Assembly: GCA_021783515.1 (NCBI GenBank)
Contig: JAJXTV010000015.1
Coordinates: 1-64,000 of the forward strand
Reading direction: 5' to 3'
Length of the DNA: 64,000 nucleotides
Source of the DNA: Nitrospirota bacterium
GTDB taxonomy: Bacteria > Nitrospirota > Thermodesulfovibrionia > Thermodesulfovibrionales > UBA6898
Positions 11,015 through 26,777 of this stretch are shown one piece after another. The first letter of the stretch is position 1; each line of letters starts with the position of its first letter. Position numbers and translations under genes: made by a program. A model generated the notes under the pieces. It saw only the letters and a list, made by a program, of their open reading frames with translations. It did no database searches and was not told the DNA's origin.

Positions 11015-11054
11015 GCAGGTTAGGGCGCTTATTTTTCAATAACTTAGGCGGCAA

Positions 11055-11073
11055 TTGGTCGCATCTGATCGCA
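11055..11073. promoter_or_regulatory. Putative arm-type integrase sites, left arm
   Basis: TTGGTCGCA (11055-11063) and CTGATCGCA (11065-11073) lie one helical turn apart between the att core and the integrase stop. Matching 9-mers recur in the right arm at 26585-26616. Confidence 0.5.
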
Positions 11074-12568: not shown

Positions 12569-12927
12569 TCGGGCCGCTCCGCGATCCCCGCCGGCGCAAG
12601 TTCGAAGAGGTCTGGCAACTCGTGAATGGGCGTCTCCCGATCCGCGCCGGTGAGCGGCCGCGGATCTCTTTTCCCAGAGAGTTTGCCACTGTAAAAACCG
12701 GCGTAGTGATAAAGCATTTTTTTGAGGTGCTCGATATAAGCGTGAATGCATGCGACAAGATCATATTTGCCCCGCATGCCAGCGCGCGGTAGGACCCCCC
12801 GCTTGACAAGCATTTGGACCCGTCGCGGCGTAATGTTCAAGTAACGCGCAATCTCATGGACGTCATGTAACCTCGCATCCTCATGGCCGGGGTTCTCCGG
12901 CAAGTTAAGCGGTAATGTACTTTTCAT
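12565..12927 (-). CDS. Nu1-like small terminase / HTH protein
   Basis: 120 aa from ATG 12927. The segment HDVHEIARYLNITPRRVQMLVKRG, then GMRGKYDLVACIHAYIEHLKKML, matches the winged-HTH plus helix pattern of phage lambda Nu1-type small terminase subunits, which recognise the packaging site. A generic HTH regulator has a similar core, so the packaging role is inferred. No large terminase gene was found in the element, which would make packaging dependent on another phage. An alternative upstream start at 12963 has no clear RBS. Confidence 0.5.
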   Translation of the reverse strand: MKSTLPLNLPENPGHEDARLHDVHEIARYLNITPRRVQMLVKRGVLPRAGMRGKYDLVACIHAYIEHLKKMLYHYAGFYSGKLSGKRDPRPLTGADRETPIHELPDLFELAPAGIAERPE

Positions 12928-13057
12928 CGTCGGTGACCACCAGGGCTTGAATTGAGGCCGCAAGAATTTTGATAATCTCGTTTGAGGATCTGCAGCCGTC
13001 TGACTTTATCTCCATGTCCTCGCCGTCGATCATTACCGTGACCGTTTGTCTACTCAT
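12905..13057 (-). CDS. Small hypothetical phage protein (50 aa)
   Basis: ATG 13057 to TAA 12905 encodes 50 aa, beginning MSRQTVTVMIDGEDMEIKSD. GGGGA lies about 10 nt before the ATG. It overlaps the start of the Nu1-like gene by 23 nt, as is common in this element. No family recognised; the sequence suggests a small beta-rich N-terminus and one helix. Confidence 0.45.
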   Translation of the reverse strand: MSRQTVTVMIDGEDMEIKSDGCRSSNEIIKILAASIQALVVTDDEKYITA

Positions 13058-13129
13058 TTGAAGAAAATCCCCGGTTTTTGGGAAAGTTGAAAAGTAAAAG
13101 AAACGAACCCCGGCATTTTTTTTCTGTGT

Positions 13130-13168
13130 GTGGTGAGATCTCGCGGGTCTTTGCGATCCTCAAACCAC
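13130..13168. repeat. Interrupted inverted repeat in the phage intergenic region
   Basis: Within the gene-free stretch 13058-13293, GTGG, GAG and TCGC on one side pair in order with GCGA, CTC and CCAC on the other, giving a long bulged hairpin. On the minus strand an A run follows, so it is not a terminator. Its place beside the replication-like gene leaves room for an origin or regulatory role, unproven. Confidence 0.3.
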
Positions 13169-13293
13169 CCCCCTCTGGAAGAACCTACCCCTTTCCCGGA
13201 CCCCGATGCCCTCCTCTGCCGGCATGGGCTCCCGCCTTTCATGTAAGAAAAAGCAAAAAGAATTCTATTCCTCATCGGTCAATCTTTCTTTCC

Positions 13294-14316
13294 TCAATTG
13301 CTGTCGATCACCTTCAGGGCCGACAAGTTAGAGAGATCCATCCTCTTTAGTGATTCGTGCCTTTCCATCTCGATGCTGTACTGGTAGCCTGCAAACTCCT
13401 CTTTCAAAACTTTCTTCCCATATGCCCATGGGCTATCGGGCTTGTACTTAAGGATCTGCCGGAGGACCTGAACAATTACCATCGGTGGAATATCGGCCTT
13501 TACGCAACGCTGAACAAACTGAAACGGATTGAAGTCATCATACGCTTTGTCGAGCTTGACGCAGAGGGTTGCCATTTCTCCTTTTTCTTCAGTCGTTACC
13601 TGTCGATGCTCCGCCGATCTCTTCGGACTTTCGTCCGAGCCTGCTTCCCCGGGTCGTTGCTCCTTAGATGGGTCTTTCTGCTTCTTTTGTATTAAGATCT
13701 CTATATCTTCTTCTGAGTCCCTAAACAAACACCGCCCGAACTCTATTGGAAACTCAGGTTTAAACTTAGTCAGGCATCTATTGACAGCATCATTTTGTGT
13801 AAAAGAATCAAGGGATTGAATCAACGCTTCAAACTCAGATGGAAACAATATTTCAAACTTACTCGGAACTCTGTTGAGCTTAAATGAAACTGAGACAACC
13901 TCATCGATTTTTGAATGAAGTTGGCTCAGTTTGATTTGGGCAAAAAAACGATCTTCGCCCATGAAGACCCCGTCTCGAAATATTGAGGTGTAAAAGTAGC
14001 GATTCTTTTCTATCCTGATCCGGTACTTGTCTACGAAGATAAATGACGGACCGCGCTTGCCGCGTCGGTCGTCGTAATGGAGATAGCGCTTTTCACGCAA
14101 TTGCCCGAGCAAGGACCGGACCTGGGTCGGAGTAAGGTGCATCATCTCAGCGAGGATCTTAGCGCTGCTCAGCACCGTCCCGGTCGACCTGTCTGTCATA
14201 GAGAGGATGAAGACAAATACGCCATATTCACGAAGGCTGATAATGCCCCGCTGCACATGTTCGTTCAGCCCCATCCGGAGAGGGACAAAGTTTTCGGCGC
14301 CCTGGTAGATCCTCAA
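13294..14316 (-). CDS. Winged-helix phage replication-like protein
   Basis: 340 aa. The N-terminal third (about 25-110) is a helix-rich winged-helix domain (LREYGVFVFILSMTDRSTGTVLSSAKILAEMMHLTPTQVRSLLGQ in outline) like those at the start of phage replication initiators of the O/DnaD type. The middle is unassigned, a charged linker lies at about 205-240, and the C-terminus contains a short helical domain. The replication role is inferred from fold and position next to PC4-like and integration genes. Its ATG overlaps the upstream stop (ATGA). Confidence 0.5.
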   Translation of the reverse strand: MRIYQGAENFVPLRMGLNEHVQRGIISLREYGVFVFILSMTDRSTGTVLSSAKILAEMMHLTPTQVRSLLGQLREKRYLHYDDRRGKRGPSFIFVDKYRIRIEKNRYFYTSIFRDGVFMGEDRFFAQIKLSQLHSKIDEVVSVSFKLNRVPSKFEILFPSEFEALIQSLDSFTQNDAVNRCLTKFKPEFPIEFGRCLFRDSEEDIEILIQKKQKDPSKEQRPGEAGSDESPKRSAEHRQVTTEEKGEMATLCVKLDKAYDDFNPFQFVQRCVKADIPPMVIVQVLRQILKYKPDSPWAYGKKVLKEEFAGYQYSIEMERHESLKRMDLSNLSALKVIDSN

Positions 14317-14591
14317 GAGAGATCCTCGCCATTCATCATTTTCAGTGCTGTATCTATGTGCTGTTTTGCCTTCAGTAAGCTTTGCTTGGTGAGTGAAAGG
14401 CCCCTCGGGGTCGGATAATCCTTCCCCATGGAATTAACACAGAAAATGCGCATATCCAAATATCGCGTCCCGTTTATTTCTTTGACGGTAAAGCGGAGGA
14501 AGGAATCGTCGCCCCTTCGGATCTTCCCGATGACGGTCTCGCCATTGCCTTTCACCTCGTTCAATTGCCCGCCTATGAGTTGGGGACCCAT
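14313..14591 (-). CDS. PC4/p15-like ssDNA-binding protein
   Basis: 92 aa. The segment from about residue 25, SFLRFTVKEINGTRYLDMRIFCVNSMGKDYPTPRGLSLT in outline, then a C-terminal helix, has the four-strand-plus-helix pattern of the transcriptional coactivator p15 (PC4) domain, which binds single-stranded DNA as a dimer. Phage and bacterial members (YdbC type) act in DNA metabolism or transcription. It overlaps both neighbours (4 and 19 nt). The start at 14591 lacks a good RBS; translation may be coupled to the gene before it. Confidence 0.65.
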   Translation of the reverse strand: MGPQLIGGQLNEVKGNGETVIGKIRRGDDSFLRFTVKEINGTRYLDMRIFCVNSMGKDYPTPRGLSLTKQSLLKAKQHIDTALKMMNGEDLS

Positions 14592-14803
14592 CCCCTGGAC
14601 TTTACTATTTCGAGAGCCTGCGGTTCGGTAAATCCGGCTGTTACAAGGCTATCGAAATAGGCTTTCTGGGCTGCAGCGAATTCCGGATAGTGCTGCTTAT
14701 ACAGTTCGATGAAATCGCGCAGGTCCTTCAACGTTGCAGTCAGCTCGGTTAGCCGTAATTGTTTGTCGATATACTCGTTAAGATCTCCTTTTTCGGGACT
14801 CAC
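14573..14803 (-). CDS. Small hypothetical phage protein (76 aa)
   Basis: 76 aa, helical, rich in Leu and Glu (LRLTELTATLKDLRDFIELYK). It ends with FTEPQALEIVKSRGWVPNS, which resembles the short EAL-type hook at the end of small phage proteins. The position between tape measure and PC4-like genes does not define a role. It starts within 4 nt of the tape measure stop (ATGA). Confidence 0.55.
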   Translation of the reverse strand: MSPEKGDLNEYIDKQLRLTELTATLKDLRDFIELYKQHYPEFAAAQKAYFDSLVTAGFTEPQALEIVKSRGWVPNS

Positions 14804-17800
14804 AGTTTCACTCCTCTCAGGCGATAGTATTCGTCAAGCTCAGGACCGAGGGTTTCCCTGACCCATCGCCTCGTTGACTCTTTGTCGAGAGAAGGTATTG
14901 AAAAGGATGATTCAAACTTGAAATTCTTCTCGACCGTCATGTCCTTTGGCAGCGCGCCGTTGATTGTTCCTATTGCCTGATTCACGCTCGTTACCACGTC
15001 CTGGATACGGGAGGTCACCGCGTCCATAATTCCGCCGAACACCGAATTCTTCACCCTGTCGGCAATGTCCCCGGGACGGCCGAAGCCGCTGCCGGCTGAT
15101 TCAAGCGGCGCATTTGGATCGAAGCTCGCTGCGCCTGAAGGGGCGCTTGCCTTCTGTTCCTCGGGAGCGGCTCCGGTCCCCCAAGAATCTTCCTGTGCCT
15201 TCTTTTCATCCTCGAGGATCTTCTTGCGTTTCTCGGCATAGAGCTCTTTTAGGAGGGTGAGGGCCTCTTCATACTCCTTCGTGTTTTTCAGCTCCTCGCC
15301 GTATTTTTCATTGAGGGCATCGAGCTCGGACTGATACCACCTGTCGAGGATCGCCATGTCATTACCGCGGAGCTGATCGAGTTCGTCCTGCCAGCTGCCG
15401 ATTTGGTCCTTAAGGGAATTGAAAAGGTCCTGGACATACTGGACGTACCGTGTCACTCTGTCAGCCCATTGTTGCACTTGATCGGCCGACATATTCGTCA
15501 CGTCCTTGCCGAAGAGGTAGAGCCGTTTGAAGGCGTCTGTTAAGCGGCCGGTGAGGCCGGACCACATTTTTTTATACGCGCCATCCTCATACGTCGCAAG
15601 GTCTGAGCTGAAGGATTTATAATCCGCCGTCAACGCGTTAAAGGTAGTCGAGAATTCATTCCTGATATTCTTGAAGGTCGACGCGGTGTTGAAGGATTCT
15701 ATGGATTCCTTGAGTTTGTTCATCGCGGAATAGAACCCGTTCAGCATCGCAAGAATGCCATTCACGAAAAGATCGGCGTTCCTTTTGGTTATTTCTTGGA
15801 GGTTTTCTGAGAATTTTTCTTCTATTTCGAGTCTTTTCGCCGCCGCCTCCTTAGCGGACAATATCCCCGCTGTTGCCTGCTCCTCAAGCAGTGCCATCTC
15901 TTTATTGCGCAGCTCCACGGCGCTGCTATAATCGAGGGCGCGCACCTCCAAAAGGGCATCCAGCTGCTTCTGACCCTGTTTGGAGGTTTCGTCTTCCTGC
16001 TTTCTTTGCTGGTTGTCGTATGCGGCGAGAAGCTCGTCTTTCTTGGCTTCCCATGCGGCCACGTCGGCATATCCTGCCTCATTGCCAGCCTTCAGCGCGG
16101 TAATATGCGCATCTATGTTCGCAATCCTTTTTTGTAGCAGTTCGTAGTCGAGCTGCTCGATGCTGTTATAATAGGTCTCCGCGCTGATGAGCCCCTCTTT
16201 GTAATCGAGATTCAAGGATTCCTTTTGCTGTCTCGCAAGCCGCTCAAATGCCGCTGCCGCATCGTCTGTCATCTTCATAGCTGCAGGTGAACCTTCCCGT
16301 ACCGATGCAAGCCACTCTTCATAGCTCCGCTTGGATTCCTTCATGAAGCCGCTTGCCGCATCTGCCGCCTTCGCCGTCTTTTCGAGCCCGGCTCCGGCAG
16401 CGCCCGCCTCGGTCCCGACGCTCTGGAGCGCTTTTGCATAACCCTCTGCCGATATCGCCCCCGCCGATGTTTTGTCTCCCGCGTTCTTCATTGACTCGCC
16501 CATTTTCGCTGACTCAGCCGACGCCGCCTTCATCGCCTCGATGCCCGCCGATACGGCCGCCCGATGCTGCTCAATGGCTTTGATCTGTGCATCGATAGCC
16601 GACGTATCCCCAAAGCCCAGCGTTGCCGTCTTTATTCCGGCGCGTTCGAGTTCCAGAACAAGAAGCTTCACGGTGTCCCATATCTTGACGATATATTCGA
16701 CGCCGATTGCGGACCATTTGCCCATGCCCTCTCCGACAGAGACAAACCCGTCTACTATCTTCGTTACCGCGATGATCAGGAGCGAGGCCACATTCACGAC
16801 CGCCTGTATCCACCTCTGAGCGCTTCCGAAGTTCTCGCCGGCAAGTGCCCCGACCTGAGGCAGGCCATTAGATACCGCATCAAAAAGCCTAGTGATTGCG
16901 CCCCAGGCCCCCTCTATCGCATCCTTGAATGTCTGCCAGGCTGCCGACTGCGAAAGCTGGTCCCACATGTCCGTAAGCCAGCCTATGAGAGAGGCGATCT
17001 TGTCAGTGATCCAGATTATGGCTGTGGCCGCAGTGTCTATCCATTTCGAGAAATCCGTCTCCCCGGCGAATGCGCTTATCCTCTCCCAGACCGCGCTGAT
17101 CGCCGCATGGAGGTTTTGAAAAGCGTCCGATGCCGCCACCTTGGCATAGAGGTCCCCGATCATCTTAATGACCGATGTTCCTATGTTCCAGAGGAAGGAA
17201 AAGCCTTCGCCGATCTTATCTATCCACGTCCTCAATGCCCCGCTGCTTCCCATTTGGTCAATCGAGTTCAAAAGGCCGCTGATCACCGATTTGAGCTTCT
17301 CGAAAATGCCGGTCGACCCCAAGGCGATCATGAGCTTTTCCCAGGCAACTTTCACATTCGAAAGAAGGCCGGACCATGAATTCATCATCTGCTGCGAGCT
17401 GCCGCCATAGGTTTTTTGGAGTTCCGAGAGCATCGCATTGAGGCCGGTCGCCGCATTGACGGCGCCCTTTTCGATCTGCGCGGACAATTCTGAGACGGAC
17501 ATGCCAAGCCCCTTCGCCATGGCCTGGATCGCCGTCGGGATCTTCTCGCCGAGCTGCTGCCGAAGTTCCTCCATCGATATGACGCCCTTGCCCGCCATTT
17601 GTTGTATGGCGATCGTCACTGACTTCAGTTCCTCGTCACTACCGCCAAAGGCCGCAACGGAATCCGCAAGAGTTCTGAAACTGCCGTTTGTCGGATCGAT
17701 GCCGGCCGACTTTAGCTTGACGAAAGAGTCCTGGATCGCGGTCATAGAGAACGGGACATTCGTTGCCTCGCGCTGAATCCACGCGAAGGCCTCGGCCGCT

Positions 17801-18132
17801 TTGCCTACATCGCCATAGAGGCCCGTGAGCATCAGCTTTGTTTTCTCTGCAGAGGAATTCACGTCAACAAAGGACTTGGCGGCGCCAGCGGCGCCCACTA
17901 CCACGGCCAGCCTGCCAAAGAAACCGATCAGGCTCGAAACACTGCCGCCTATGCCCTGGATACCGGCATTCGCCCGTCCGGACGCAGATTCGAGCGACTG
18001 GAAACCGGCCTTTGCTCCCTCTCCGGCCTTATTGAGGCCCTCGACCCCGCTCTTAATGGCGGCTATGCCCTTGCTCGCAAGGTCCTTTAACTGTATGACG
18101 ATATCGAGGCCGGATGGTACGGAGGTGCTCAT
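14800..18132 (-). CDS. Phage tail tape measure protein
   Basis: 1110 aa, the largest gene of the element. The N-terminus has the tape-measure core: repeated Gly/Ala-rich segments, then YGDVGKAAEAFAWIQREATN, then GKGVISMEELRQQLGEKIPTAIQAMAKGLGMS in outline, a well conserved signature. Hydrophobic stretches in the middle alternate with long coiled-coil regions (about 640-980), and the end has short amphipathic segments. Such proteins set tail length and are ejected with DNA in siphoviruses and myoviruses. ATG 18132 follows AAGGGG by 8 nt. The frame is intact over its whole length. Confidence 0.9.
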   Translation of the reverse strand: MSTSVPSGLDIVIQLKDLASKGIAAIKSGVEGLNKAGEGAKAGFQSLESASGRANAGIQGIGGSVSSLIGFFGRLAVVVGAAGAAKSFVDVNSSAEKTKLMLTGLYGDVGKAAEAFAWIQREATNVPFSMTAIQDSFVKLKSAGIDPTNGSFRTLADSVAAFGGSDEELKSVTIAIQQMAGKGVISMEELRQQLGEKIPTAIQAMAKGLGMSVSELSAQIEKGAVNAATGLNAMLSELQKTYGGSSQQMMNSWSGLLSNVKVAWEKLMIALGSTGIFEKLKSVISGLLNSIDQMGSSGALRTWIDKIGEGFSFLWNIGTSVIKMIGDLYAKVAASDAFQNLHAAISAVWERISAFAGETDFSKWIDTAATAIIWITDKIASLIGWLTDMWDQLSQSAAWQTFKDAIEGAWGAITRLFDAVSNGLPQVGALAGENFGSAQRWIQAVVNVASLLIIAVTKIVDGFVSVGEGMGKWSAIGVEYIVKIWDTVKLLVLELERAGIKTATLGFGDTSAIDAQIKAIEQHRAAVSAGIEAMKAASAESAKMGESMKNAGDKTSAGAISAEGYAKALQSVGTEAGAAGAGLEKTAKAADAASGFMKESKRSYEEWLASVREGSPAAMKMTDDAAAAFERLARQQKESLNLDYKEGLISAETYYNSIEQLDYELLQKRIANIDAHITALKAGNEAGYADVAAWEAKKDELLAAYDNQQRKQEDETSKQGQKQLDALLEVRALDYSSAVELRNKEMALLEEQATAGILSAKEAAAKRLEIEEKFSENLQEITKRNADLFVNGILAMLNGFYSAMNKLKESIESFNTASTFKNIRNEFSTTFNALTADYKSFSSDLATYEDGAYKKMWSGLTGRLTDAFKRLYLFGKDVTNMSADQVQQWADRVTRYVQYVQDLFNSLKDQIGSWQDELDQLRGNDMAILDRWYQSELDALNEKYGEELKNTKEYEEALTLLKELYAEKRKKILEDEKKAQEDSWGTGAAPEEQKASAPSGAASFDPNAPLESAGSGFGRPGDIADRVKNSVFGGIMDAVTSRIQDVVTSVNQAIGTINGALPKDMTVEKNFKFESSFSIPSLDKESTRRWVRETLGPELDEYYRLRGVKL

Positions 18133-18256
18133 GGTGTGTCCCCTTTCATAAAGAATTTATTGACCGGCGCTTTGCCTGTTACTGCCGTAAGGTTTGTCTT
18201 GAAGGTCTTATTCATCTGGCCGCTCAGGATCGTCTCCTCGCCGTTTCGTCTCATGT

Positions 18257-18880
18257 TCAGGCTCGCCAACCGGCCTCTTTGATCGCCTGCGGCAGCTGGG
18301 CCGCCCATTCTTTCCTGAGCTGCTCCGCAACCCTGTTCTTTATCGCCGTCATGTTTGCAGGCTGCTTGACGATCGCCTGGACGGTAATCACCTTTAATGC
18401 GCGAAGCGGATAACGAGACTTCCCTTGCCTGGCAAAGACCTGAGGAATGCCGCCTTTGCCCCGTGCGAGGAACGCCTGCGGCAGCTTCGTCTGCTTACTC
18501 TTGAGGATCTTTACTGTCACGCCGCTGTATTTAGACCGATGAAGTTTCTTTTGTGCAATCCCTCTGTTTTTGGAAATAAATGTTTGTATGCCGCCGGATA
18601 TTTGCTTCGGCCCAAAATAGGTCAGGCTGATAGGATCGCCATATATCGTCAGTTTGGCCTCAGGATAGTCATTATTGATCCCCTTCAGGTTCACGGTTAT
18701 CTTTCTATCGACATCCTGTTTTTTGAGATTGAACCTGCTCCTAACCTGTTTCGAGATCTCGGTCTTTCCCGCCGAGGCGGCGCGGCGGACAGTACGCGCG
18801 CCGGCCTTCTTTATGATCCCTGCATTGAGCGTCTTCAGTAGCGCGTCAACGTTCGTTATGCTTATGGATGTCTTGAACAT
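18257..18880 (-). CDS. Minor tail protein Z-like (gpZ)
   Basis: 207 aa from ATG 18880. The pattern of an N-terminal helix, RRAASAGKTEISKQVRSRFNLKKQDVDRKI, and a basic C-terminal part containing FLARGKGGIPQVFARQGKSRYPLRALK (outline) matches the lambda gpZ family, which is needed to complete the tail terminus. A longer frame from 18946 would begin inside the previous gene without RBS. The position just before the tape measure gene is unusual for gpZ, which in lambda lies among tail completion genes. Confidence 0.65.
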   Translation of the reverse strand: MFKTSISITNVDALLKTLNAGIIKKAGARTVRRAASAGKTEISKQVRSRFNLKKQDVDRKITVNLKGINNDYPEAKLTIYGDPISLTYFGPKQISGGIQTFISKNRGIAQKKLHRSKYSGVTVKILKSKQTKLPQAFLARGKGGIPQVFARQGKSRYPLRALKVITVQAIVKQPANMTAIKNRVAEQLRKEWAAQLPQAIKEAGWRA

Positions 18881-18884
18881 TTCA

Positions 18885-19355
18885 TTATTTCCCGGATTGC
18901 TGCGAGGTGCGCGCCCTGGGCTCGGCTTCACCGTGAGATTTCCCATCGAGACCGGCCGGCGAAGGTGAGGGCGAGGACGAACCCGGCGTGAGAGCCCCGA
19001 GCCGCACCATTACGGCGCTGAGGTTTCTCTTTGTCCGGTCGTTGAAATTCTGTTCGGCAATAAGGTCGAGCAGCGCCATGCCGTCGCCGAGATCGATCGT
19101 ATCGAACCATTCGCGAGGCTTGTCGAGAATCAACCCCATGATCGCGACGATCTCCTCGAAGGCGATATCGAACAGCTGACGAAGGTCGGACAGGCTCGTA
19201 AGTTCAAGGCCGGCCTCGCGGATGCGCACGAAGAGCCTTGCCACCGCTTCTGATAAGATGTTCATCTTGCCGAAGGGGACAGGGAAGATGGTCATAGCCT
19301 TACCATTCGAAAGCGTGTACAGTATTCCGGGAAGATACTTTTCACTTTTGCTCAT
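18885..19355 (-). CDS. Tail assembly chaperone-like protein
   Basis: 156 aa. The central part WFDTIDLGDGMALLDLIAEQNF fits the tail assembly chaperones that bind the tape measure during tail formation. The tail is Ser/Pro-rich and disordered. The order chaperone, small gene, tape measure supports this. Chaperones are often made in two lengths by a programmed frameshift; no obvious slippery site was noticed at the 3' end. ATG 19355 follows AAGGA by about 9 nt. Confidence 0.5.
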   Translation of the reverse strand: MSKSEKYLPGILYTLSNGKAMTIFPVPFGKMNILSEAVARLFVRIREAGLELTSLSDLRQLFDIAFEEIVAIMGLILDKPREWFDTIDLGDGMALLDLIAEQNFNDRTKRNLSAVMVRLGALTPGSSSPSPSPAGLDGKSHGEAEPRARTSQQSGK

Positions 19356-19392
19356 TGTTTAATCCTTTCTTTCAACTATAGTTCGTTGCGGC

Positions 19393-19435
19393 TTTAAAAA
19401 GTGGAGGAGCGGCCAGAAGGTACTGCCGCCCCTCC
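19393..19435 (-). terminator. Intrinsic terminator inside the phage late region
   Basis: On the minus strand an 11-bp stem (one G-T pair) with an 11-nt loop is followed by ACTTTTTAAA. It separates the protease block from the tail genes, so transcription of the tail block needs read-through, antitermination or its own promoter. Confidence 0.7.
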
Positions 19436-19450
19436 GAATGTCGCCGGTCC

Positions 19451-19600
19451 TTAGATTTCCGTCGGCGAGACATCAACCAAAACTCGCCGATTCTGCGCGG
19501 TCGACACAAAGCACACTACGCGCCGTATCGCCTGGAGTGTGGCGTCGGGAGGCGCATCGCACATAAATGGAATGCCCCGGACACACATGGGACTTGACAT
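19451..19600 (-). CDS. Small hypothetical phage protein (49 aa)
   Basis: ATG 19600 to TAA 19451 encodes 49 aa starting MSSPMCVRGIPFMCDAPPD. AAAGG lies about 7 nt before the ATG and the previous gene ends 11 bp upstream. A strong terminator follows the stop by about 15 bp, which fits a real last gene of its operon. The sequence looks beta-rich; no family recognised. Confidence 0.5.
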   Translation of the reverse strand: MSSPMCVRGIPFMCDAPPDATLQAIRRVVCFVSTAQNRRVLVDVSPTEI

Positions 19601-19611
19601 GAGTGCCTTTA

Positions 19612-20151
19612 TCAAATGAGTGATACCCGGAAGCCGGATTTCAAAGCGTCGAAAATGACCTTTTCCATGATACGAGGTATCGCAGCCTCGATACGTTGAT
19701 CGCGGTAATCATCCTGTGTCATAAAAGCGGCGTTGCTGAACCCGACTTCGAACAGGCGTTCGTCTCCGGCATCGTGCATGATCCTGACGGTGCCATCGAT
19801 GATAACAACGTCAAAGCCGGCATAGACCCCTTGCAGCCATAAATAATTTTCAATAGCTGATCTTTTGATTTTGATCGGCTTCAAATCGGCCTCTCGCACG
19901 GCTCTTCCTGTCCGGCAAAGTTCTTCGGCTTCGGCTGTAGGTAGGTCGCTTACTATCTCGCCCGGATTGCATCGCCGGCCGTCTCGCAGCCAAACTACAT
20001 TCGGCCGGAGTTGCGCGACCTCCAAAATCACGATGGACATTTTGGCTTCGTCATCAACGGCCTGCAATGATACGCCGAAATTGTCTTCCTGATCACCGGG
20101 GTACTCAGCGGCGCCGGCGATTTCTGCTTTCGATTTCTTCATGTCGTTCAT
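19612..20151 (-). CDS. Hypothetical phage protein (179 aa)
   Basis: 179 aa. The N-terminal about 30 residues are polar. A middle part (ILEVAQLRPNVVWLRDGRRCNPGEIVSDLPTAEAEELCRTGRA in outline) looks like a small beta domain. The C-terminus is amphipathic helical (DYRDQRIEAAIPRIMEKVIFDAL). It is coupled to the S49 protease by an ATGA overlap, so it may be a head protein. No family recognised. Confidence 0.6.
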   Translation of the reverse strand: MNDMKKSKAEIAGAAEYPGDQEDNFGVSLQAVDDEAKMSIVILEVAQLRPNVVWLRDGRRCNPGEIVSDLPTAEAEELCRTGRAVREADLKPIKIKRSAIENYLWLQGVYAGFDVVIIDGTVRIMHDAGDERLFEVGFSNAAFMTQDDYRDQRIEAAIPRIMEKVIFDALKSGFRVSLI

Positions 20152-21500
20152 TTGCCCCCTTTTCTTTTTTGCCGACTACGCGCGTCTTCAATTAGTGGAT
20201 TGCCCGCCTCCTCGGCGATCGGCAGCCCAGCTCGTTTCCGCGCCGCTATCACAGTCGCCGGAGGGTTTTTTTCAAATTCCGCCACCTGGAGCAGATGCTC
20301 GTAAAAATCGGCCGCCGTTGCGAATTTCATCTGGAGTGTCGGATCGTTTTTCCACCGCTGCAAGGCCTCAATTGCAAGATTTCCATCGGCGCCTTCCTGA
20401 CTTACACCGAAGGTCATCGCCCCGACGGACGCGGGCTTTTGCTGTTTCCTGCCCTCTTCGACGCCGGTGTTGAAAACTGACTGATAGACATCCGGAAACT
20501 TCGACTTCAAATTTTCTGCATTCACGACAATTTCCTCCTCATTTTCTGTTGACACACCTTCGGGTGCCTTGGTGTATACCTTTTGTCCTGAAAGGACATC
20601 CCCTTTGACGAGACGATCGATGATTATGTCAAACGACTCGATGCCGTCCGCGAGCCCTGCATCGACCGCCTGCTGCCCCATGAAGATCCTGCCTTCGGCC
20701 ATTGCCGAAAGGACCTTCTTTGCGGACACGCCGCGGTTGCGCGCCACCTCGTCCACAAAGAGGCTGTAAACGTAATCGGCGCGGTCCTGCAGATAGGCCT
20801 TGCCCTCGTCGGTGAGCGGTTTATAGTTCGAGGCGATGCGCTTGTACTTGCCGGCATAAACCTCGGTCGTCACGACTCCGCGCATCTTCTGCTGACCGGA
20901 ATAATCGCGATGCTCGACCACGACGCCGATCGACCCCGCTCCGGCCGTGGTGGACGCCATGAAGACCTTGTCGCATGCGGAGGCGAGCCAGTAACCGCCT
21001 GAATAGCAGGACGGATTGACGACCGCAATGACCGGCTTGGTCCCGCGGGACGCGAAGATGATGTCCGAGAGGTTCGAGAGGTTCGAGGCGTCTCCCCCGG
21101 GGGTATCGAAGTCCATCAGTATCGAATGAACGTCGGCGCGGTCCCTCGCCTCGATGAAGTCCTGCGTCAGCAGCTCCAGGGAGGTCCCGCCGCTGAACCA
21201 CATGAGCATGTTCATGCGCGGCCCGATCACGTCGTAGACCGGGAGCACCGCGACGCCGTTTATGACGCTGTAGCGGTCGGAATAGGGGGGCGTGGTTGGC
21301 GAATCGTCAACAACGGCCACGTTTTTTTGTAGGGGCAGGCGACTATTTGCCCTCGCGGGCTGAAACGGCGCAAGGTCGTCTATCTTCGCGCCCGACTCCC
21401 AGGCCTCGAGGAAATTCTTTATCTCGGCCCGCTTCTCAGAAAGAAGCGCGAGCGGCGAACCGAAGAAGGCGTGTGAAACTCTGTGCCTGTCTTTTTTCAT
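20148..21500 (-). CDS. S49 family (SppA-like) phage protease
   Basis: 450 aa. The S49 peptidase domain spans about 75-290: VLPVYDVIGPR strand, DTPGGDASNL oxyanion loop, catalytic Ser in PSCYSGGYWLA near 165, and the general-base Lys in VYAGKYKRIASNYKPL near 217. Phage members (lambda gpC type) mature the prohead and often carry a scaffold region downstream. Here the 130-residue C-terminal part is helical and charged, fitting that plan. It is the only clear head-related gene left in the element. ATG 21500 overlaps the upstream stop (ATGA). Confidence 0.85.
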   Translation of the reverse strand: MKKDRHRVSHAFFGSPLALLSEKRAEIKNFLEAWESGAKIDDLAPFQPARANSRLPLQKNVAVVDDSPTTPPYSDRYSVINGVAVLPVYDVIGPRMNMLMWFSGGTSLELLTQDFIEARDRADVHSILMDFDTPGGDASNLSNLSDIIFASRGTKPVIAVVNPSCYSGGYWLASACDKVFMASTTAGAGSIGVVVEHRDYSGQQKMRGVVTTEVYAGKYKRIASNYKPLTDEGKAYLQDRADYVYSLFVDEVARNRGVSAKKVLSAMAEGRIFMGQQAVDAGLADGIESFDIIIDRLVKGDVLSGQKVYTKAPEGVSTENEEEIVVNAENLKSKFPDVYQSVFNTGVEEGRKQQKPASVGAMTFGVSQEGADGNLAIEALQRWKNDPTLQMKFATAADFYEHLLQVAEFEKNPPATVIAARKRAGLPIAEEAGNPLIEDARSRQKRKGGK

Positions 21501-21760
21501 GATTTTTTAAATCCGTGGACCTGCCTGAGCAGAAATATTGAAGAACGGACATCCTTCAGCGTTTTGATAAACGTATTGACGGGAACGGGGAAATCGGCGT
21601 AGATTTCTTCCAGGATTGAAAGGAGACGGGGGCCTTGCACTTTCCATGCGACTGTTTTCGGGTCTTTTAAGAAGGGATGGATTTCAAATCCGCGTAAGCG
21701 GAAATAGGTAACCAGGTATGCATCTTCAAGGACAAGCTCAGAAACTTCTTCTTTTCCCAT
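21497..21760 (-). CDS. DUF5659-like small protein
   Basis: 87 aa. The pattern LEDAYLVTYFRLRGFEIHPFLKDP, strand, then LEEIYADFPVPVNTFIKTLKDVRSSIF resembles the DUF5659 domain, a small family found in phages and integrated elements with no known function. It is the first gene of the protease block and overlaps it by 4 nt. The assignment is from memory of the pattern. Confidence 0.5.
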   Translation of the reverse strand: MGKEEVSELVLEDAYLVTYFRLRGFEIHPFLKDPKTVAWKVQGPRLLSILEEIYADFPVPVNTFIKTLKDVRSSIFLLRQVHGFKKS

Positions 21761-21805
21761 ATCTTTCTTTCTCCTTTAAGAGTCATTGCGGCACTCTCAG
21801 GAGAC

Positions 21806-21834
21806 AGCATATAGAAAAAGAAAAAAGCGTTCAA
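21806..21834 (-). promoter_or_regulatory. Possible promoter of the phage protease block
   Basis: Minus strand TTGAAC (21834-21829), 17-bp spacer, TATGCT (21811-21806), within an AT-rich gap and about 45 bp before the first gene of the block. Confidence 0.35.
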
Positions 21835-21942
21835 AAAAATATAAGAAGTTTTCCGCTATTAAAATAAAATCACTTATACAAGCGGGAAGAAAGCCGAAAA
21901 ATACGGGGTGATCAGATATCGACTGTCGGAGTTATTGAATTT

Positions 21943-22668
21943 CTAAGAACGAAAACGGCTAGGAAGTAGGTGATTATTTGCGGCTGTCCAGGGGAAATCC
22001 TCGTAAGCCTTATTTACTGAGGTCGCTATAGATGAAAAAATCTTCCGGACACTTTCTTGCTGGATAGTCTCTTTTTCGAAACCGAAAAACATAACCAGTG
22101 GAAATAGCACCTCATATGATATTCGACCGTCAATATCGCTCTCGGTCGAATTCAGGAGACGTCGGCCCTTTTTTATAAAATCAATATAGAAGCTTTTCAT
22201 CTCTTTCTCAGAGAGAGTTGTTTTCGTGAAATATAGAATCCCCTCGGAAGGGTAATTTGTTATTTTTATGATCTCTATGGTCTTACGAATCAGGTCGTTC
22301 TTGAATTTGCCGAATGAAGATCGCCTGCGGTTCTCAGCCAAGTTCTCATATATCAAGGCAGCAAGAATTCTATTGCCATCAACAAAATTCTTACGGGACC
22401 GTTCTTTTAAGCTTTTCGATTTGTATCTATTTTTGTTTAATGCCTGCTGTGACCAAAAAAGCATCCACTCCAAAGATTCTTCTCTGCTGCGAGTAGCTCC
22501 GTCATATAGATAATCTCTTATGCGCTCCCATCCTTCAAGCGTAGATTCAATAATGATTTCTGCCTCAGGTCCTTCCATGTAATCGTGAACCCTAATACGG
22601 CCATTTTTGAGAATCATCGCTTTACCAAGAGGACGTTTAATTTCTTTTGTATCTTTTTTCTTTCCCAA
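21943..22668 (-). CDS. Hypothetical AT-rich accessory protein (241 aa)
   Basis: 241 aa, strongly charged (Lys, Arg, Glu) and mainly helical, for example LEGWERIRDYLYDG, KFKNDLIRKTIEIIKITNYP and EKEMKSFYIDFIKKGRRLL. No signal peptide or membrane helix. The codon choice is much richer in A/T than in neighbouring genes, which suggests separate acquisition. It sits between the toxin-antitoxin pair and the structural genes, a common site for extra cargo. No family recognised. Confidence 0.55.
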   Translation of the reverse strand: MGKKKDTKEIKRPLGKAMILKNGRIRVHDYMEGPEAEIIIESTLEGWERIRDYLYDGATRSREESLEWMLFWSQQALNKNRYKSKSLKERSRKNFVDGNRILAALIYENLAENRRRSSFGKFKNDLIRKTIEIIKITNYPSEGILYFTKTTLSEKEMKSFYIDFIKKGRRLLNSTESDIDGRISYEVLFPLVMFFGFEKETIQQESVRKIFSSIATSVNKAYEDFPWTAANNHLLPSRFRS

Positions 22669-22704
22669 TTCCCACTCTCCGATGTGGTTTCTCCCGAAAA
22701 CTTC

Positions 22705-22757
22705 TCAGGGGCAGGGCGTGGAGTGCGCCTCTTCGGCCTGCAGAGCCTATCCCCTGA
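22705..22757. repeat. Nested inverted repeats after the antitoxin gene
   Basis: Outer 7-bp arms TCAGGGG / CCCCTGA enclose two small hairpins, GGCG-7-CGCC and GGC-7-GCC, a three-way-junction layout. No T run follows on either strand. It may be a structured RNA or a 3' hairpin of the toxin-antitoxin transcript. Confidence 0.3.
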
Positions 22758-22760
22758 AAC

Positions 22761-23126
22761 CTAAACCGCTATCTGCAGCTCTATCCTGTCGTATGAAATG
22801 ACCGGGCGTGTCTTGTGATCGTTTTCCTTCTTTTCTAGCAACCCGATCTCTTCAAGATATCTCACGTCATCGGCGATGTTCTTGATGTCCCGATTCGCCA
22901 TGCGCGCGAGTTCGTTAATCGACGCCGGCTTCTTTGCTTTGATGATGTGAAGCAGCTCCAGCCGCTTAGGAGTCAATGCCTTCCTGAAAGCTTCCAGACT
23001 CGTGAAATAAACGCCGGACTCCTTCTTCACCTTCTCCCCCCGCTCCAGTTTCTTCATGGTGTCTTTCGTCTCGGCGAGGGCCTCCTCGATGCTCTTAATA
23101 CCTATTCTCATCTTTTTGACCTTCAT
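22761..23126 (-). CDS. TumA-like antitoxin, winged-helix protein
   Basis: 121 aa. The N-terminal part (about 1-50) is helical and probably the toxin-binding part. The rest (FRKALTPKRLELLHIIKAKKPASINELARMANRDIKNIADDVRYLEEIGLLE in outline) is a MarR/HVO_A0114-like winged helix that binds DNA. It follows the DUF6516 gene with an ATGA overlap, the toxin-first order seen for TumE/TumA pairs. It is expected to repress the shared promoter, where matching half-sites are seen. Confidence 0.75.
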   Translation of the reverse strand: MKVKKMRIGIKSIEEALAETKDTMKKLERGEKVKKESGVYFTSLEAFRKALTPKRLELLHIIKAKKPASINELARMANRDIKNIADDVRYLEEIGLLEKKENDHKTRPVISYDRIELQIAV

Positions 23127-23404
23127 CTTCTGAACCTCCTCACGTCTCTGTAAAAATCATCGATCAGCTTATCGACGCCTCTAAACTCATAGGGCTTTTC
23201 TGTGTCCCTATAGTGCCGGTGATCGCCTTTACCCTCGGCATTGTCATATCCGACGACGCGGACCCCGTCGACGACATAGACCAGGGAGTATTTAAGCCCA
23301 TGCGGTTTATCTCCCGTGGCTGCCGGCAGCTCCCATATCTTTATTTCGAGAACGTTCCCGCCCTCTTCAATAACCTTGATGTGCTTTACTAACTTTGCTC
23401 CCAT
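23123..23404 (-). CDS. DUF6516 (TumE-like) toxin
   Basis: 93 aa. The pattern HGLKYSLVYVVDGVRVVGYDNAEGKGDHRH, then PYEFRGVDKLIDDFYRDV (outline), with the conserved YDN and GDHRH motifs, is that of the DUF6516/TumE family described as the toxin of TumE/TumA modules. The His-rich motif suggests an enzymatic role, target not known from sequence. The start ATG is only about 15 nt from the predicted transcription start, so the leader is very short. Confidence 0.75.
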   Translation of the reverse strand: MGAKLVKHIKVIEEGGNVLEIKIWELPAATGDKPHGLKYSLVYVVDGVRVVGYDNAEGKGDHRHYRDTEKPYEFRGVDKLIDDFYRDVRRFRR

Positions 23405-23422
23405 ATCCTTTGTTTAACTAAT

Positions 23423-23454
23423 GGTATTGTATACCAATGCCCGGTATATGTCAA
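23423..23454 (-). promoter_or_regulatory. Promoter and operator of the toxin-antitoxin operon
   Basis: Minus strand TTGACA (23454-23449), 17-bp spacer, TACAAT (23431-23426). GGTAT/ATACC half-sites lie at 23423-23427, 23431-23435 and 23443-23447. The first two form a perfect dyad over the -10 element, a typical autorepression layout. Confidence 0.75.
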
Positions 23455-23482
23455 AGCCGCTTGCACCGATTCGGTCCTTTCC

Positions 23483-23620
23483 CTATTTCGCAGGGACAGA
23501 CGGCGCCTCGAACGGCTTCCCGCGGAGGTTCAGTTTTTCCCGAAGCATCTCTGTCCGTGGATGACAATACCCCTTAGTTGTTCGCAGAGCCGCAGCGGGC
23601 TCGCCTTCAATCGTCTTCAT
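23483..23620 (-). CDS. Small hypothetical phage protein (45 aa)
   Basis: ATG 23620 overlaps the stop of the 171-aa gene (ATGA) and the frame closes at TAG 23483. The product is 45 aa, basic and Pro-rich at its end, starting MKTIEGEPAAALRTTKGYCH. The overlap matches the habit of this element, which is the main support. No family recognised. Confidence 0.42.
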   Translation of the reverse strand: MKTIEGEPAAALRTTKGYCHPRTEMLREKLNLRGKPFEAPSVPAK

Positions 23621-24132
23621 ACTCGTTCACCACTATTCTCTTCAGGGGCATCGGTCCTCAGAACCGGGGAAAAACCTTGTTTATTGATCCAGGTCGTCAA
23701 CAGATGATCGCCGGCGCTCCTGAACAGCGCATCATTTTCCCATTTGATAAAGAATCGATTAAATAACGCGGAAAGTTCGCGGAAGCTCTTCTCTGTAAGC
23801 CGCGTACTTGTTTTCAAGAATAAAGCGTGGATCTCCGTTGCCGGATATTTCTCCGCCCCTAGCCATTCCCGGACCGGACAGCGCCCTTTGTCGAGATGGA
23901 AGAATATACAGTTCCTAACAAACTGGAGACCGTCCTCCGCGTACCAAGCGAAGAATTTCGCTTCAAGAGCGTCGAATCTCTCGGGATCATGAAAACCGAC
24001 TTCGGACCTCAGTTCAGTGAACCTTTTCCGCATGTCTGAAATTAAGAGATCCCGCCAGTTCCTCGGACGCCTGGCTTTAGGCAATATATTCGCCACCGAT
24101 CCTGATAGTCTGCTAATTTCTGCCGTCTCCAT
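23617..24132 (-). CDS. Hypothetical phage protein downstream of the C4-like RNA (171 aa)
   Basis: 171 aa, soluble, with aromatic-rich helices (AWYAEDGLQFVRNCIFF, SALFNRFFIKWENDALF). It starts at ATG 24132 with AGGAGG 9 nt upstream and lies directly after a structured RNA that ends in a T run. Its expression therefore probably requires escape from that structure. In P1-like phages the gene after the C4 RNA is an antirepressor. This protein shows no recognised antirepressor domain, so only the position suggests such a role. Confidence 0.55.
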   Translation of the reverse strand: METAEISRLSGSVANILPKARRPRNWRDLLISDMRKRFTELRSEVGFHDPERFDALEAKFFAWYAEDGLQFVRNCIFFHLDKGRCPVREWLGAEKYPATEIHALFLKTSTRLTEKSFRELSALFNRFFIKWENDALFRSAGDHLLTTWINKQGFSPVLRTDAPEENSGERV

Positions 24133-24156
24133 AGCTTATGCCCTCCTTTGGCAAAT

Positions 24157-24230
24157 AAAAAATCCGGACCCTTGTGCGTCGGTCTTATGAAACCGACCTC
24201 CATGCGTCGCCACATGAAGAGAGTCCGGAT
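24157..24230 (-). ncRNA. Three-way-junction RNA resembling phage C4 antisense RNA
   Basis: Read on the minus strand, an 11-bp outer stem (24230-24220 with 24072+90 to 24172, that is 24172-24162; one G-U pair) encloses two adjacent hairpins. The first has a 7-bp stem with an 8-nt loop (24219-24198), the second a perfect 6-bp stem with an 8-nt loop (24197-24178). Five unpaired bases follow (24177-24173) and a T run comes directly after the outer stem (24161-24157). The fold and the loop sequences (TGGCGACG, TTCATAAG) match my memory of the C4 antisense RNA of P1-type phages. A promoter lies about 85 bp upstream. The C4 identity needs a covariance search. Confidence 0.6.
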
Positions 24231-24315
24231 TAATATTTTTCCTCAAAACTAAAAAACCCCTTTCCGCATTGCTGCAGAGGCCGGGGCCGGCCCCATAAGA
24301 ACTTCGCACAATCGG

Positions 24316-24344
24316 ATTTTACGGGAGAAGGAAACCGATGTCAA
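24316..24344 (-). promoter_or_regulatory. Promoter of the C4-like RNA transcript
   Basis: Minus strand TTGACA (24344-24339), 17-bp spacer, TAAAAT (24321-24316). The leader between it and the structured RNA contains a 12-bp palindrome GGGGCCGGCCCC and a CCCC...GGGGTTTTTT segment that could form an extra early terminator. Confidence 0.7.
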
Positions 24345-24419
24345 TACTTTTTTCGACTCAGCCCCGGCGGCCGCGCCGGGCAAACTACCGGTACGTAGCA
24401 CCCGTATCGAAGAGTCTCA

Positions 24420-24704
24420 TCAGCGTCCAAGGAAAAACAGAACGATTGCAAGGACAAAGAGCATGATTATAATCGCCGGCCACGTCCCTGATCTGCCCTG
24501 AGTGGAGTCGGCGTCGGCTGTCGTCTTCGACGTTTCCGTGTAGGATATCCCGGTACCCGGAATACCAATCGTCTTCCGGGTACCCTTCGGGCCTATTGTC
24601 ATCCTGGCCCCCCGGCCGCCGATCGAGACCGAGGGCCCGGACTTGCTGACGTTCAGCGTGACGCCCGGGAAAAGCTTCTTTCTGCGGTAAAATCGAAAAC
24701 CCAT
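24420..24704 (-). CDS. DUF4236 domain protein with C-terminal membrane helix
   Basis: 94 aa. The first 55 residues follow the DUF4236 pattern: MGFRFYRRKKLFPGVTLN, SKSGPSVSIGGRGARMTIG and GTRKTIGIPGTGISY. A polar linker follows and one hydrophobic helix (about 74-92) at the very end. The domain is common in mobile elements and near DNA-related proteins; its role is unknown. The helix suggests the small beta domain faces the cytoplasm from the membrane. Confidence 0.85.
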   Translation of the reverse strand: MGFRFYRRKKLFPGVTLNVSKSGPSVSIGGRGARMTIGPKGTRKTIGIPGTGISYTETSKTTADADSTQGRSGTWPAIIIMLFVLAIVLFFLGR

Positions 24705-24733
24705 GGTCCTCTCCTATGGTTGCCTTCGAAGTC

Positions 24734-25411
24734 TCAAAGATACTTTACCCAGTGCTCTTCCGAAATGATTGCGAGCGGGAAGCCCTCCTTCTTTAGTTCA
24801 ACCGCCCGCTCTATCTTTCGTCCAAAAGAAGAGTGAATCCAGTCGGTACTTCCAACCAGGCCGATTACGAGATAATTCGTCCGTTGGCGCGGATGATCGT
24901 TACAGATTCCGCCTCGGCCTGTTATTTCCGCGACACATCGATTGCGACTGCCGAAGGTGAATTTGCCCGTGAGACAGAATTCGCGGTCCTCAAATTCGAT
25001 AGGCGGCGCTGGATTGCATAAGGGCAGGGAGGTGCTCAAATCCGCGCAACGCTGTACAGGATTCATACCCGTGAATTCTGCGAAGATACTGAAGATCTGC
25101 GATACCTCTTCCTGATCGTCGACGTGCTCTGTAAGGATGTGCTTTATCCGAGAATAGAGAACATCAACCGGCCATTCCTTTGCAATATGCTTATGTGACT
25201 CGATCCAGCCGACAAAGAACTGCGCCTCGTCCACGGTGACAACGCCATCAGACACGATCCCCTTTGCTATCCCGATCAACTCGTCAATCTCCCGATCATT
25301 CAGCCTTTTGGCATTGAACGTCCGATTCACCGGTTGTCCCTGCTCATTTACTTCGTCCCGGCCGCCCTTCATTGTCCCCTCAATTATCTTTTCAATCTCA
25401 GACTTCCCCAT
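24734..25411 (-). CDS. BRCT domain protein
   Basis: 225 aa from ATG 25411, preceded by AAGGAAGG; a frame from 25435 would put this RBS inside the gene. The N-terminal half (about 30-125) is helical with an EF-hand-like DGVVTVDEAQFF segment. The C-terminal BRCT domain (about 140-225) has REFCLTGKFTFGSRNRCVAEITGRGG and NYLVIGLVGSTDW in outline, as at the end of bacterial DNA ligases. Stand-alone BRCT proteins of this form are often next to exonuclease or mobile-element genes. A DNA-end or protein-binding role is likely, target unknown. Confidence 0.8.
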   Translation of the reverse strand: MGKSEIEKIIEGTMKGGRDEVNEQGQPVNRTFNAKRLNDREIDELIGIAKGIVSDGVVTVDEAQFFVGWIESHKHIAKEWPVDVLYSRIKHILTEHVDDQEEVSQIFSIFAEFTGMNPVQRCADLSTSLPLCNPAPPIEFEDREFCLTGKFTFGSRNRCVAEITGRGGICNDHPRQRTNYLVIGLVGSTDWIHSSFGRKIERAVELKKEGFPLAIISEEHWVKYL

Positions 25412-25476
25412 GACTGGACCTTCCTTTTGCGACACTCAATTAGAATGCGCCATGAACCTTCGAAATCTATAGACAG

Positions 25477-26085
25477 TCACTCAGCTTTTCTACGCATGAA
25501 TTCCACGATCTTCCAGTAACCTTCCCCGGTCTTCGCCATGCGAAAATTAACGGAAGGATCACCCTTCGGGGTGACTATGGCAGTATTGCCGTCCGTTTTG
25601 ATATCGAGATCCCAAATGCTCCCTTTTTTCAGGTTGTCCAGGTTGCTCTTATCCGCAGATGTTAAAGAAGTCTTCATCGTCGACTTCAAAGTCTCTTTCA
25701 TGGCCGGCGCCATTGCCATAACCATAACCTTGCCGAGATTTCTTCCGGCCGCTTCCCACTCAGTCCGGGGCGCCGGCTCTTCCTTTGCGAGTACTTCTTT
25801 CATCATGTTATCGACGATGCTGTCTATGTCCAGATATTTGAGCGCCGTCTCCCCATCCCTATTGAGAATCGCTTGCCTGAACTGATAGAGGGAATACCGC
25901 GGCGTGCCTTTCATGAAGAGAAAGGTCCCTCCTGCGAGAAGCACCAAAATAGAAAGAACTATGAGTAGGAAAGGCTTTCTTGATCTGGGGACTTCCTCTG
26001 GAAGATTTTCGGATTCACTCTTCTCCCCGCTTTTCCACCGCTGATAATCCTCTGAAGTCTTGACCCACTCCGGCAGTTTTGCCAT
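25477..26085 (-). CDS. DUF2939-like membrane-anchored protein
   Basis: 202 aa. A cytoplasmic N-terminus (KTSEDYQRWKSG) is followed by one membrane helix at about 38-58. An extracytoplasmic domain then opens with the DUF2939-like segment YSLYQFRQAILNRDGETALKYLDIDSIV. The end is a small beta domain (NTAIVTPKGDPSVNFRMAKTGEGYWKIVEF). The family is found in inner-membrane proteins of unknown function. It is the last clear gene before the right end of the element. Confidence 0.65.
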   Translation of the reverse strand: MAKLPEWVKTSEDYQRWKSGEKSESENLPEEVPRSRKPFLLIVLSILVLLAGGTFLFMKGTPRYSLYQFRQAILNRDGETALKYLDIDSIVDNMMKEVLAKEEPAPRTEWEAAGRNLGKVMVMAMAPAMKETLKSTMKTSLTSADKSNLDNLKKGSIWDLDIKTDGNTAIVTPKGDPSVNFRMAKTGEGYWKIVEFMRRKAE

Positions 26086-26627
26086 GATCCCCTCCTATTG
26101 GCGTTTTGTTTGATCCTTGCCGAAAGCATAAACCACCCTACACGGAAAATCAAGAGGCGAACTGCAGCGCCCTGGGAGATGCCGGTCCTCGATATCCATG
26201 ACCTGGACCCCGGCCGAGGACTCCGCCGGCGCAGCGCTCAGCGTCCATAAGGTCGATTATCGCGCTTCAGACGTCCACAGGCCTGCCGATCACCGGCAGC
26301 CGCCGCGGTCGACAACGGACAATCAAGGCACCGGGGCGCATAAAATACCCCTTCCGGCGCACTGAGAGCCCGCAGGAGAGGCAATCGGCAGCTTGGGTAA
26401 GGGTACGTGCGGGACCGGGTAGCGCAGCGCAGCTCACGCCGGGGATCATCGTCGCACCCTCGGAGCGTCCTCGATGATCGGGACCACCCGGCCGCCCTCC
26501 GGAGGGTGATGCGTTGCTCAGTATCCGGAAGCCTATTCGGTGGCGCTTCAGGAGCCGCAGGGATAGTAGATTGCTACAGGCCTATTGGTCGCAAACTGGT
26601 CGCAAAATGCGATCAGTTTCCCACCTT
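26086..26627. other. Gene-free GC-rich right arm of the element
   Basis: No supported gene in about 540 bp; short open frames lack RBS and family features. It contains an 8-bp inverted repeat GATCATCG / CGATGATC (26444-26451, 26472-26479), a 12-bp palindrome CCCTCCGGAGGG (26495-26506) and the right arm-type sites. It may hold attP-arm and regulatory functions or be a decayed gene. Confidence 0.45.
26585..26616. promoter_or_regulatory. Putative arm-type integrase sites, right arm
   Basis: TTGGTCGCA (26585-26593) and CTGGTCGCA (26596-26604) are spaced by 11 bp, followed by TGCGATCAG (26608-26616), the reverse complement of the left-arm CTGATCGCA. They sit about 75 bp from the att core. Confidence 0.5.
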
Positions 26628-26657
26628 TTGACACCTATTGATACTCTGTGATACCAT
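26628..26657 (+). promoter_or_regulatory. Element-borne promoter for tRNA-Leu
   Basis: TTGACA at 26628-26633, 18-bp spacer, TACCAT at 26652-26657. Transcription would begin about 27 bp before the tRNA. It lies inside the element, so the host tRNA is now driven by phage DNA. Confidence 0.6.
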
Positions 26658-26689
26658 GTAACTCTCCGATTTATCGAAAACCCCTTATA

Positions 26690-26730
26690 TGCCCGAGTGG
26701 CGGAATTGGTAGACGCAAGGGACTTAAAAT
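26690..26730 (+). repeat. attR: right copy of the 41-bp att repeat
   Basis: Identical to 10974-11014. Here it forms the 5' half of the intact tRNA-Leu gene; the sequence to its left is element DNA and to its right the chromosomal 3' half. Confidence 0.93.
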
Positions 26731-26777
26731 CCCTCGCGGGAAACCGCGTGCCGGTTCGAGTCCGGCCTCGGGCACCA
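26691..26777 (+). tRNA. tRNA-Leu (anticodon UAA)
   Basis: 87 bases, including an encoded CCA. The acceptor stem GCCCGAG pairs with CTCGGGC, the D arm contains GGAATTGGTAGAC, the anticodon loop is CTTAAAA (anticodon TAA, reads UUA codons), a long variable arm CTCGCGGGAAACCGCGTG follows, and the T arm has GGTTCGAGTCC. The gene is intact because the element restored its 5' half on integration. Confidence 0.97.

Follow-up and report, generated by a model that had tools for sequence, protein, structure and literature searches.

A cluster of hairpins in the window (the whole stretch of DNA analysed here, 64,000 nucleotides) is, to judge by its sequence, a genuine regulatory RNA of a decayed prophage. 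The locus is very probably a control module of temperate phages built on a promoter-driven antisense RNA, from a new family that would act like the C4 RNA of phage P1 and the CI RNA of phage P4, with the copy in the window most likely orphaned. Sequence models document C4/CI-type RNA control of lysogeny in Proteobacteria and in the phages of that group. For the Nitrospirota family our computations show the fold and its covariation, the matched specificity of the RNA and both of its targets, the conservation of a promoter and a U run, and the association with particular genes.

A three-way junction RNA with a complementary leader

The module is read from the minus strand and consists of the following parts, given in the direction of transcription:

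24344-24316, minus strand: sigma-70-type promoter, TTGACA-17-TAAAAT
24311-24294, minus strand: leader target a1b1 (seqA-like), TTGTGCG-AAGT-TCTTATG, 15 of 18 positions Watson-Crick complementary to the RNA's CATAAGACCGACGCACAA
~24287-24251, minus strand: T1, an early hairpin with a U run (from the fold), placed as is the isrK/seqA terminator of P4-type phages
24231-24161, minus strand: C4-like antisense RNA, a three-way junction of 71 nt (from the fold and from model R3)
24231-24220/24172-24161, minus strand: stem P1, 12 bp (junction fold)
24219-24211/24206-24198, minus strand: stem P2, 9 bp, with loop GCGA (junction fold)
24197-24190/24185-24178, minus strand: stem P3, 8 bp (junction fold)
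24189-24183, minus strand: segment b', the P3 loop CATAAGA, complementary to b1 of the leader
24178-24172, minus strand: segment a', the junction strand CGCACAA, complementary to a1 of the leader
24177-24173, minus strand: single strand, 5 nt, linking P3 to the 3' side of stem P1 (junction fold)
24160-24153, minus strand: U run TTTTATTT, terminator-like, directly after stem P1 (from the comparison of the family with C4)
24148-24141, minus strand: Shine-Dalgarno sequence AAGGAGGG of ORF171, where the a2b2 target of relatives is absent
24132-23617, minus strand: ORF171, 171 aa (subject of profile searches)

Much of this layout had been anticipated. The original prediction placed a consensus promoter at 24344-24316, which matches the sigma-70 consensus at 11 of 12 positions, and a possible early leader hairpin with a T run, which the fold recovers as T1; a gene with a strong ribosome-binding site was noted after the RNA, and AAGGAGGG does precede the 171-aa frame. 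The predicted architecture of an outer stem, two hairpins and a T run also stood, but its stems were slightly short: 11, 7 and 6 bp, against the 12, 9 and 8 bp that we found for P1, P2 and P3.

The junction folds at -40.4 kcal/mol, compared with -20.0 +/- 2.9 for shuffled sequences (z -7.1; 0/200 shuffles). Model R3, of which the window sequence is itself a part, scored the window copy at 80.5 bits. Chance alone produces many loose three-way junctions, about 48 in every 64 kb when sequence is shuffled; the rare part is a junction combined with a leader that complements both P3 and the junction strand.

At the window locus the junction lies 85 nt downstream of the promoter. The leader opens with TTGTGCGAAGTTCTTATG (24311-24294), and a1b1 is located at, or just ahead of, the predicted transcript start. 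Extended pairing of 24311-24283 with P3 and the junction strand scored 47, a value above those of all 3,000 dinucleotide-shuffled leaders (maximum 35) and likewise above those of all 3,000 shuffled RNA segments (maximum 40.5). When 1.5 Mb of shuffled sequence was searched, the best of 572 junctions scored 41.5, compared with 43.5 for the window combination. The leader site was also the top match on both strands of the element, apart from the perfect complement of the RNA itself. Cofolding of leader and RNA gave a gain of -0.7, with 2/300 shuffles, but this is a weak test because both partners are self-folded. A sequence similar to T1, GGCCTCCGCAGTGATGCGGAAAGGAGGTTTTT, is carried by the related locus L128.

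Two open frames run through such modules. In the window, a GTG frame at 24309-24136 (minus strand) ends shortly before ORF171, possibly by chance, and in phage P1 (L014:3268-3468) an open frame starts from an AUG in b1, passes through C4 and stops just before icd.

The RNA belongs to a family with covarying stems

We began with a covariance model of the window sequence alone, which found relatives in further genomes from the phylum, among them L126-L129, at E 4e-14 to 2.5e-9; these and all E-values from models built in this analysis are rough. A pattern from these first relatives brought in more from Nitrospirota and Nitrospinia MAGs and from viral contigs, with 11 loci at E <= 1.2e-10, three of them repeats of loci from the first search. 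A 13-sequence model then matched 17 of 396 Nitrospirota genomes at E <= 0.01 (14 of 396 at full length), and 25 family loci were examined in all. BLAST of the RNA against the same 396 genomes returned short fragments only, and two of these (L007 and L009) were dropped for their coding-DNA look. We also set aside low-score model matches in coding-looking sequence (L130-L132) and short, terminator-like matches of 36-43 nt (G147, G299 and G312).

Stem covariation, whose absence the original prediction had listed among the findings that would count against it, was strong. With the 13 sequences aligned by plain MAFFT, 95% of the cells were paired and double changes occurred at 17 of 26 pairs; 0/500 shuffles reached these values, and slid controls paired at 51% or less. 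Twelve held-out loci, in an alignment fitted to the model, were 92% paired with double changes at 25 of 26 pairs. Upstream of the RNA, a promoter scoring at least 9 was present in 21 of the 25 loci (shuffled mean 2.35, maximum 6). Because homologues exist and their stems covary, we regard the window element as a real RNA.

Targets track the RNA in relatives

In nearly every locus the parts follow one order: promoter, leader target a1b1, three-way junction and U run, in most cases with an early U-run hairpin between a1b1 and the junction. After these, relatives have a second target, a2b2, that overlaps the Shine-Dalgarno sequence of the next gene. In L128, for example, the leader target is GCGAATATCAACAGGG and the downstream target GCGAAAATCAACAGGAGG; L150 has ATGTTAAAACCAGAAGGG twice, and L163 has ATAGAGTCTTTGAGGG and ATAGAAACTTTGAGGAGG. 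L126 has no clear a1b1. The stems are conserved, whereas the P3 loop and the junction strand are locus-specific, and both targets track them. When RNAs and targets of 13 loci were compared, a locus's own upstream target was the best in 11 of 13 cases, as was its own downstream target, and among held-out loci the own target was best in 6 of 11 cases upstream and 9 of 12 downstream; the permutation p-value was 5e-5 in each of these four comparisons, which is optimistic because some loci are close relatives (L137/L139, L129/L169 and L164/L171).

Several of the genes next to the RNA encode antirepressor-type regulators: AntA in L126 and L153 (E 1e-28 and 1e-27), and Bro-N (4e-19), ORF6N (3e-15) and Rha (5e-27) among L157, L159 and L164. 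Such a gene lying under the target of the RNA supports a C4-like reading. Antirepression is not universal, because many next genes encode small unannotated proteins and one, in L127, a DnaD-like replication protein. By eye, the first genes of L128, L129, L136, L151, L152 and L170 seem to share a motif like GL(Y/T)xIIxDIE, and these small proteins are possibly one family controlled by the RNAs. In L139 the C4-like RNA is followed, some 0.9 kb further downstream, by an int-alpA RNA (RF02996, 36.9 bits) at L139:2938-3007 (plus strand).

Given the covariation, the order of parts, the matched targets and the types of next gene, sequence comparison indicates that the RNA is a member of a new C4-like antisense family with its own terminator. 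Rfam 15 does not include this family, to judge by gathering-level scans of its members, and a description of it that is unpublished or not openly available may exist.

The window copy lacks its downstream target

The original prediction suggested looking for two short complementary target segments near the ribosome-binding site of a downstream gene. In the window a1b1 scored 46.5, the strongest of 13 compared loci; a2b2 is absent, the window's own downstream target scoring 21.0 and ranking second among the 13. No matching target was found at the start of any other gene in the element, nor, beyond chance, elsewhere in the source genome. A pairing of the leader with the ORF171 ribosome-binding site scored at chance level and was rejected.

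Profile searches with ORF171 gave no Pfam or NCBIfam match, no credible PHROG match and no antirepressor domain. No relatives were found among viral contigs, phages, plasmids and genome contigs, apart from one weak relative in G009, near which the RNA was not seen. A single-sequence AlphaFold model had a pLDDT of 48 and was set aside. The suggestion that immunity is determined by the RNA is plausible for the relatives but conjectural for the window copy, which has neither a2b2 nor an antirepressor; for this reason the window copy is probably an immunity RNA left as an orphan or a remnant. The target gene may have been replaced or lost, or the RNA may now be confined to acting on its own leader or on phages that enter the cell.

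The module lies inside a 15.7-kb element at tRNA-Leu (window 10974-26689) with genes for an integrase and for tape-measure, neck, tail-chaperone and S49 head-protease proteins. A 41-bp direct repeat, the 5' half of tRNA-Leu(UAA), flanks the element at 10974-11014 and 26690-26730. Integration apparently took place around the anticodon loop, with the element contributing the 5' half of the functional tRNA (26690-26777). Among the element genes searched, a subset of its ORFs, none matched a capsid or a terminase, and the element showed no portal gene of its own; it may be a decayed prophage or satellite-like. Elements related to it by their S49 protease (G049, G111, G118 and G044) carry no such RNA module. 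Beyond ORF171, at 23404-22761 (minus strand), are a TumE toxin (PF20126) and then an HVO_A0114-type antitoxin, a pair that has a separate 11/12 promoter at 23454.

Proposed mechanism and alternatives

The best reading, by analogy with C4 of phage P1, is antisense inhibition of the translation of a phage regulator in the relatives; here we infer expression, termination, pairing in vivo and the direction of regulation. Transcription from the promoter would produce a leader in which a1b1 serves as a decoy or attenuation target. It may halt at T1, and would halt again at the U run past the junction. That the RNA is released by termination is suggested by the U run (at least 5 T in 10) that directly follows stem P1 in 20 of 25 family loci, compared with 1 of 31 C4 loci. 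The compact RNA so released would leave the P3 loop (b') and the junction strand (a') free to pair in trans with a2b2 on the read-through mRNA, masking the Shine-Dalgarno sequence of the next gene. Since the silenced gene is often of antirepressor type (AntA, Bro-N, ORF6N or Rha), the prophage would stay quiet and immune. In the window, the module, most likely orphaned in a decayed prophage, could do no more than control its own leader or act on an incoming phage that has a matching site.

The same parts could form a cis-acting attenuator, in which a1b1 pairs intramolecularly with P3 and the junction strand, opens stem P1 and prevents termination, so that the module would switch read-through and have no action in trans. 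U runs after both T1 and stem P1 suit such a device, and its nested leader-P3/junction fold (-65.0 kcal/mol) is near enough to the junction fold (-71.5 kcal/mol) to be an alternative. We nevertheless consider it unlikely: the three-way junction is the more stable fold and forms locally, and an attenuator leaves unexplained why relatives have a second target over the Shine-Dalgarno sequence, one that follows the very same segments of the RNA. The conserved, covarying P2 and P3, the conserved promoter close upstream and the match between variable loops and two target sites make it highly improbable that the structure is just an ordinary branched intrinsic terminator between two genes with no antisense role, even though stem P1 with its U run is terminator-like and loose junctions are common by chance. 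A more serious possibility, to which we give real if lesser weight, concerns the window copy: it may no longer function at all, as the fossil of a phage immunity region. The missing a2b2 and antirepressor, the lack of a matching target in the genome and the lack of a capsid, portal or terminase family match as such among the genes searched fit this; decay, however, should have eroded the promoter, the a1b1 complementarity and the stems, all of which are intact.

Relationship to the Rfam C4 family

The original prediction likened the RNA to C4, a comparison that fits the fold, the order of parts and the target sites but not the Rfam C4 covariance model (RF01695), which gave no match in 261 bp of the window at E up to 10. 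A gathering-level scan of the window for C4 also gave nothing, the window RNA fell short of the 45-bit threshold for membership by score, and none of the scanned family members reached gathering. The same model scored C4 of phage P1 at 68.8 bits and P4 CI at 74.9 bits. A scan of 229 genomes of the class with RF01695 found no match and is uninformative, because control genomes gave no match either. In structure the agreement is closer. A fold-based detector found the same junction in P1, P4 and the window, with gaps of (0,0,7), (0,0,8) and (0,0,5). Like C4, the window has the P1/P2/P3 junction with a free strand before the 3' side of stem P1, and a complementary leader site upstream, at -78 nt (mostly -60 to -88 at known C4 loci). 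A C4-type a2b2 over the downstream ribosome-binding site is absent from the window and present in most relatives, and ORF171 shows no icd/antirepressor domain in profile searches, a gene type found downstream in several relatives. By comparison with the new family, the window has the full-length model match, the covarying stems, the promoter, a1b1 and the U run.

It could be argued that the RNA is a divergent true member of Rfam C4. The two share topology, order of parts, GGUUUC in P3, CAA ahead of the 3' strand of stem P1 and two-site targeting, and a C4 model of our own, built from 18 sequences, gave the family member L154 15.6 bits. On the window, however, that model aligned the P3 hairpin alone, at 3.3 bits with filters off; the Rfam model was silent at E up to 10 in L137 and L154 as well as in the window; and the family model, run in reverse, recovered no C4 locus. 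We therefore think membership very unlikely and retain the reading of a separate, C4-like family. As a bolder and rather doubtful extension, this would be a family of self-terminating antisense RNAs conferring immunity in Nitrospirota phages, its C4 architecture either evolved separately or diverged beyond recognition; orphan copies in decayed prophages would retain the RNA without the target and so provide trans-only superinfection immunity against related phages.

A separate family with C4 architecture in Nitrospirota suggests that the guarding of antirepressors by RNA extends beyond what the models reveal, and that some C4-like systems go unnoticed. The co-variation of RNA and target offers ready-made specificity groups, so that immunity groups of these phages could be predicted from sequence.

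Comparison with known systems

C4 of phages P1 and P7 (RF01695; c4-a1b1, RF03163) resembles the window family in its three-way junction with abutting P2 and P3, in having a' in the free strand before the 3' side of stem P1 and b' in the P3 loop, and in its target pair, with a1b1 placed within the leader and a2b2 covering the ribosome-binding site of a downstream, antirepressor-type gene. The covariance models, in contrast, match in neither direction. Stem P1 is mostly 10-14 bp in the family and 17-18 bp in C4, P2 mostly 9 bp versus 4-5 bp, and the free strand 5 nt versus 7 nt; the U run straight after stem P1 is a further difference. C4 is processed by RNase P to a 77-nt RNA (PMC5320573), and a terminator at the end of the RNA would be a simpler route to the mature form.

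sRNA-Xcc1 (RF02221), whose targets are predicted only (PMC2996969), also has a three-way junction model with a U-rich tail. Its model scored L154 (9193-9120, minus strand) at 22.5 bits, under the gathering score of 53, but gave no match in the window or L137. One published table lists C4, isrK and sRNA-Xcc1 side by side in Xylella (PMC12189769), and sRNA-Xcc1 may be another C4-like RNA.

The P4 CI RNA (RF01695), which pairs with seqA and seqC (PMC4825925), follows a promoter and a seqA/isrK leader (RF01394) with its own terminator. Neither the isrK nor the C4 model of Rfam matches at the window, which also lacks seqC, and CI is reportedly processed from a longer transcript, whereas the RNA of the window family probably ends at its own terminator. 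In order of parts, the CI RNA with its seqA (isrK) leader is the closest known system to the module described here.
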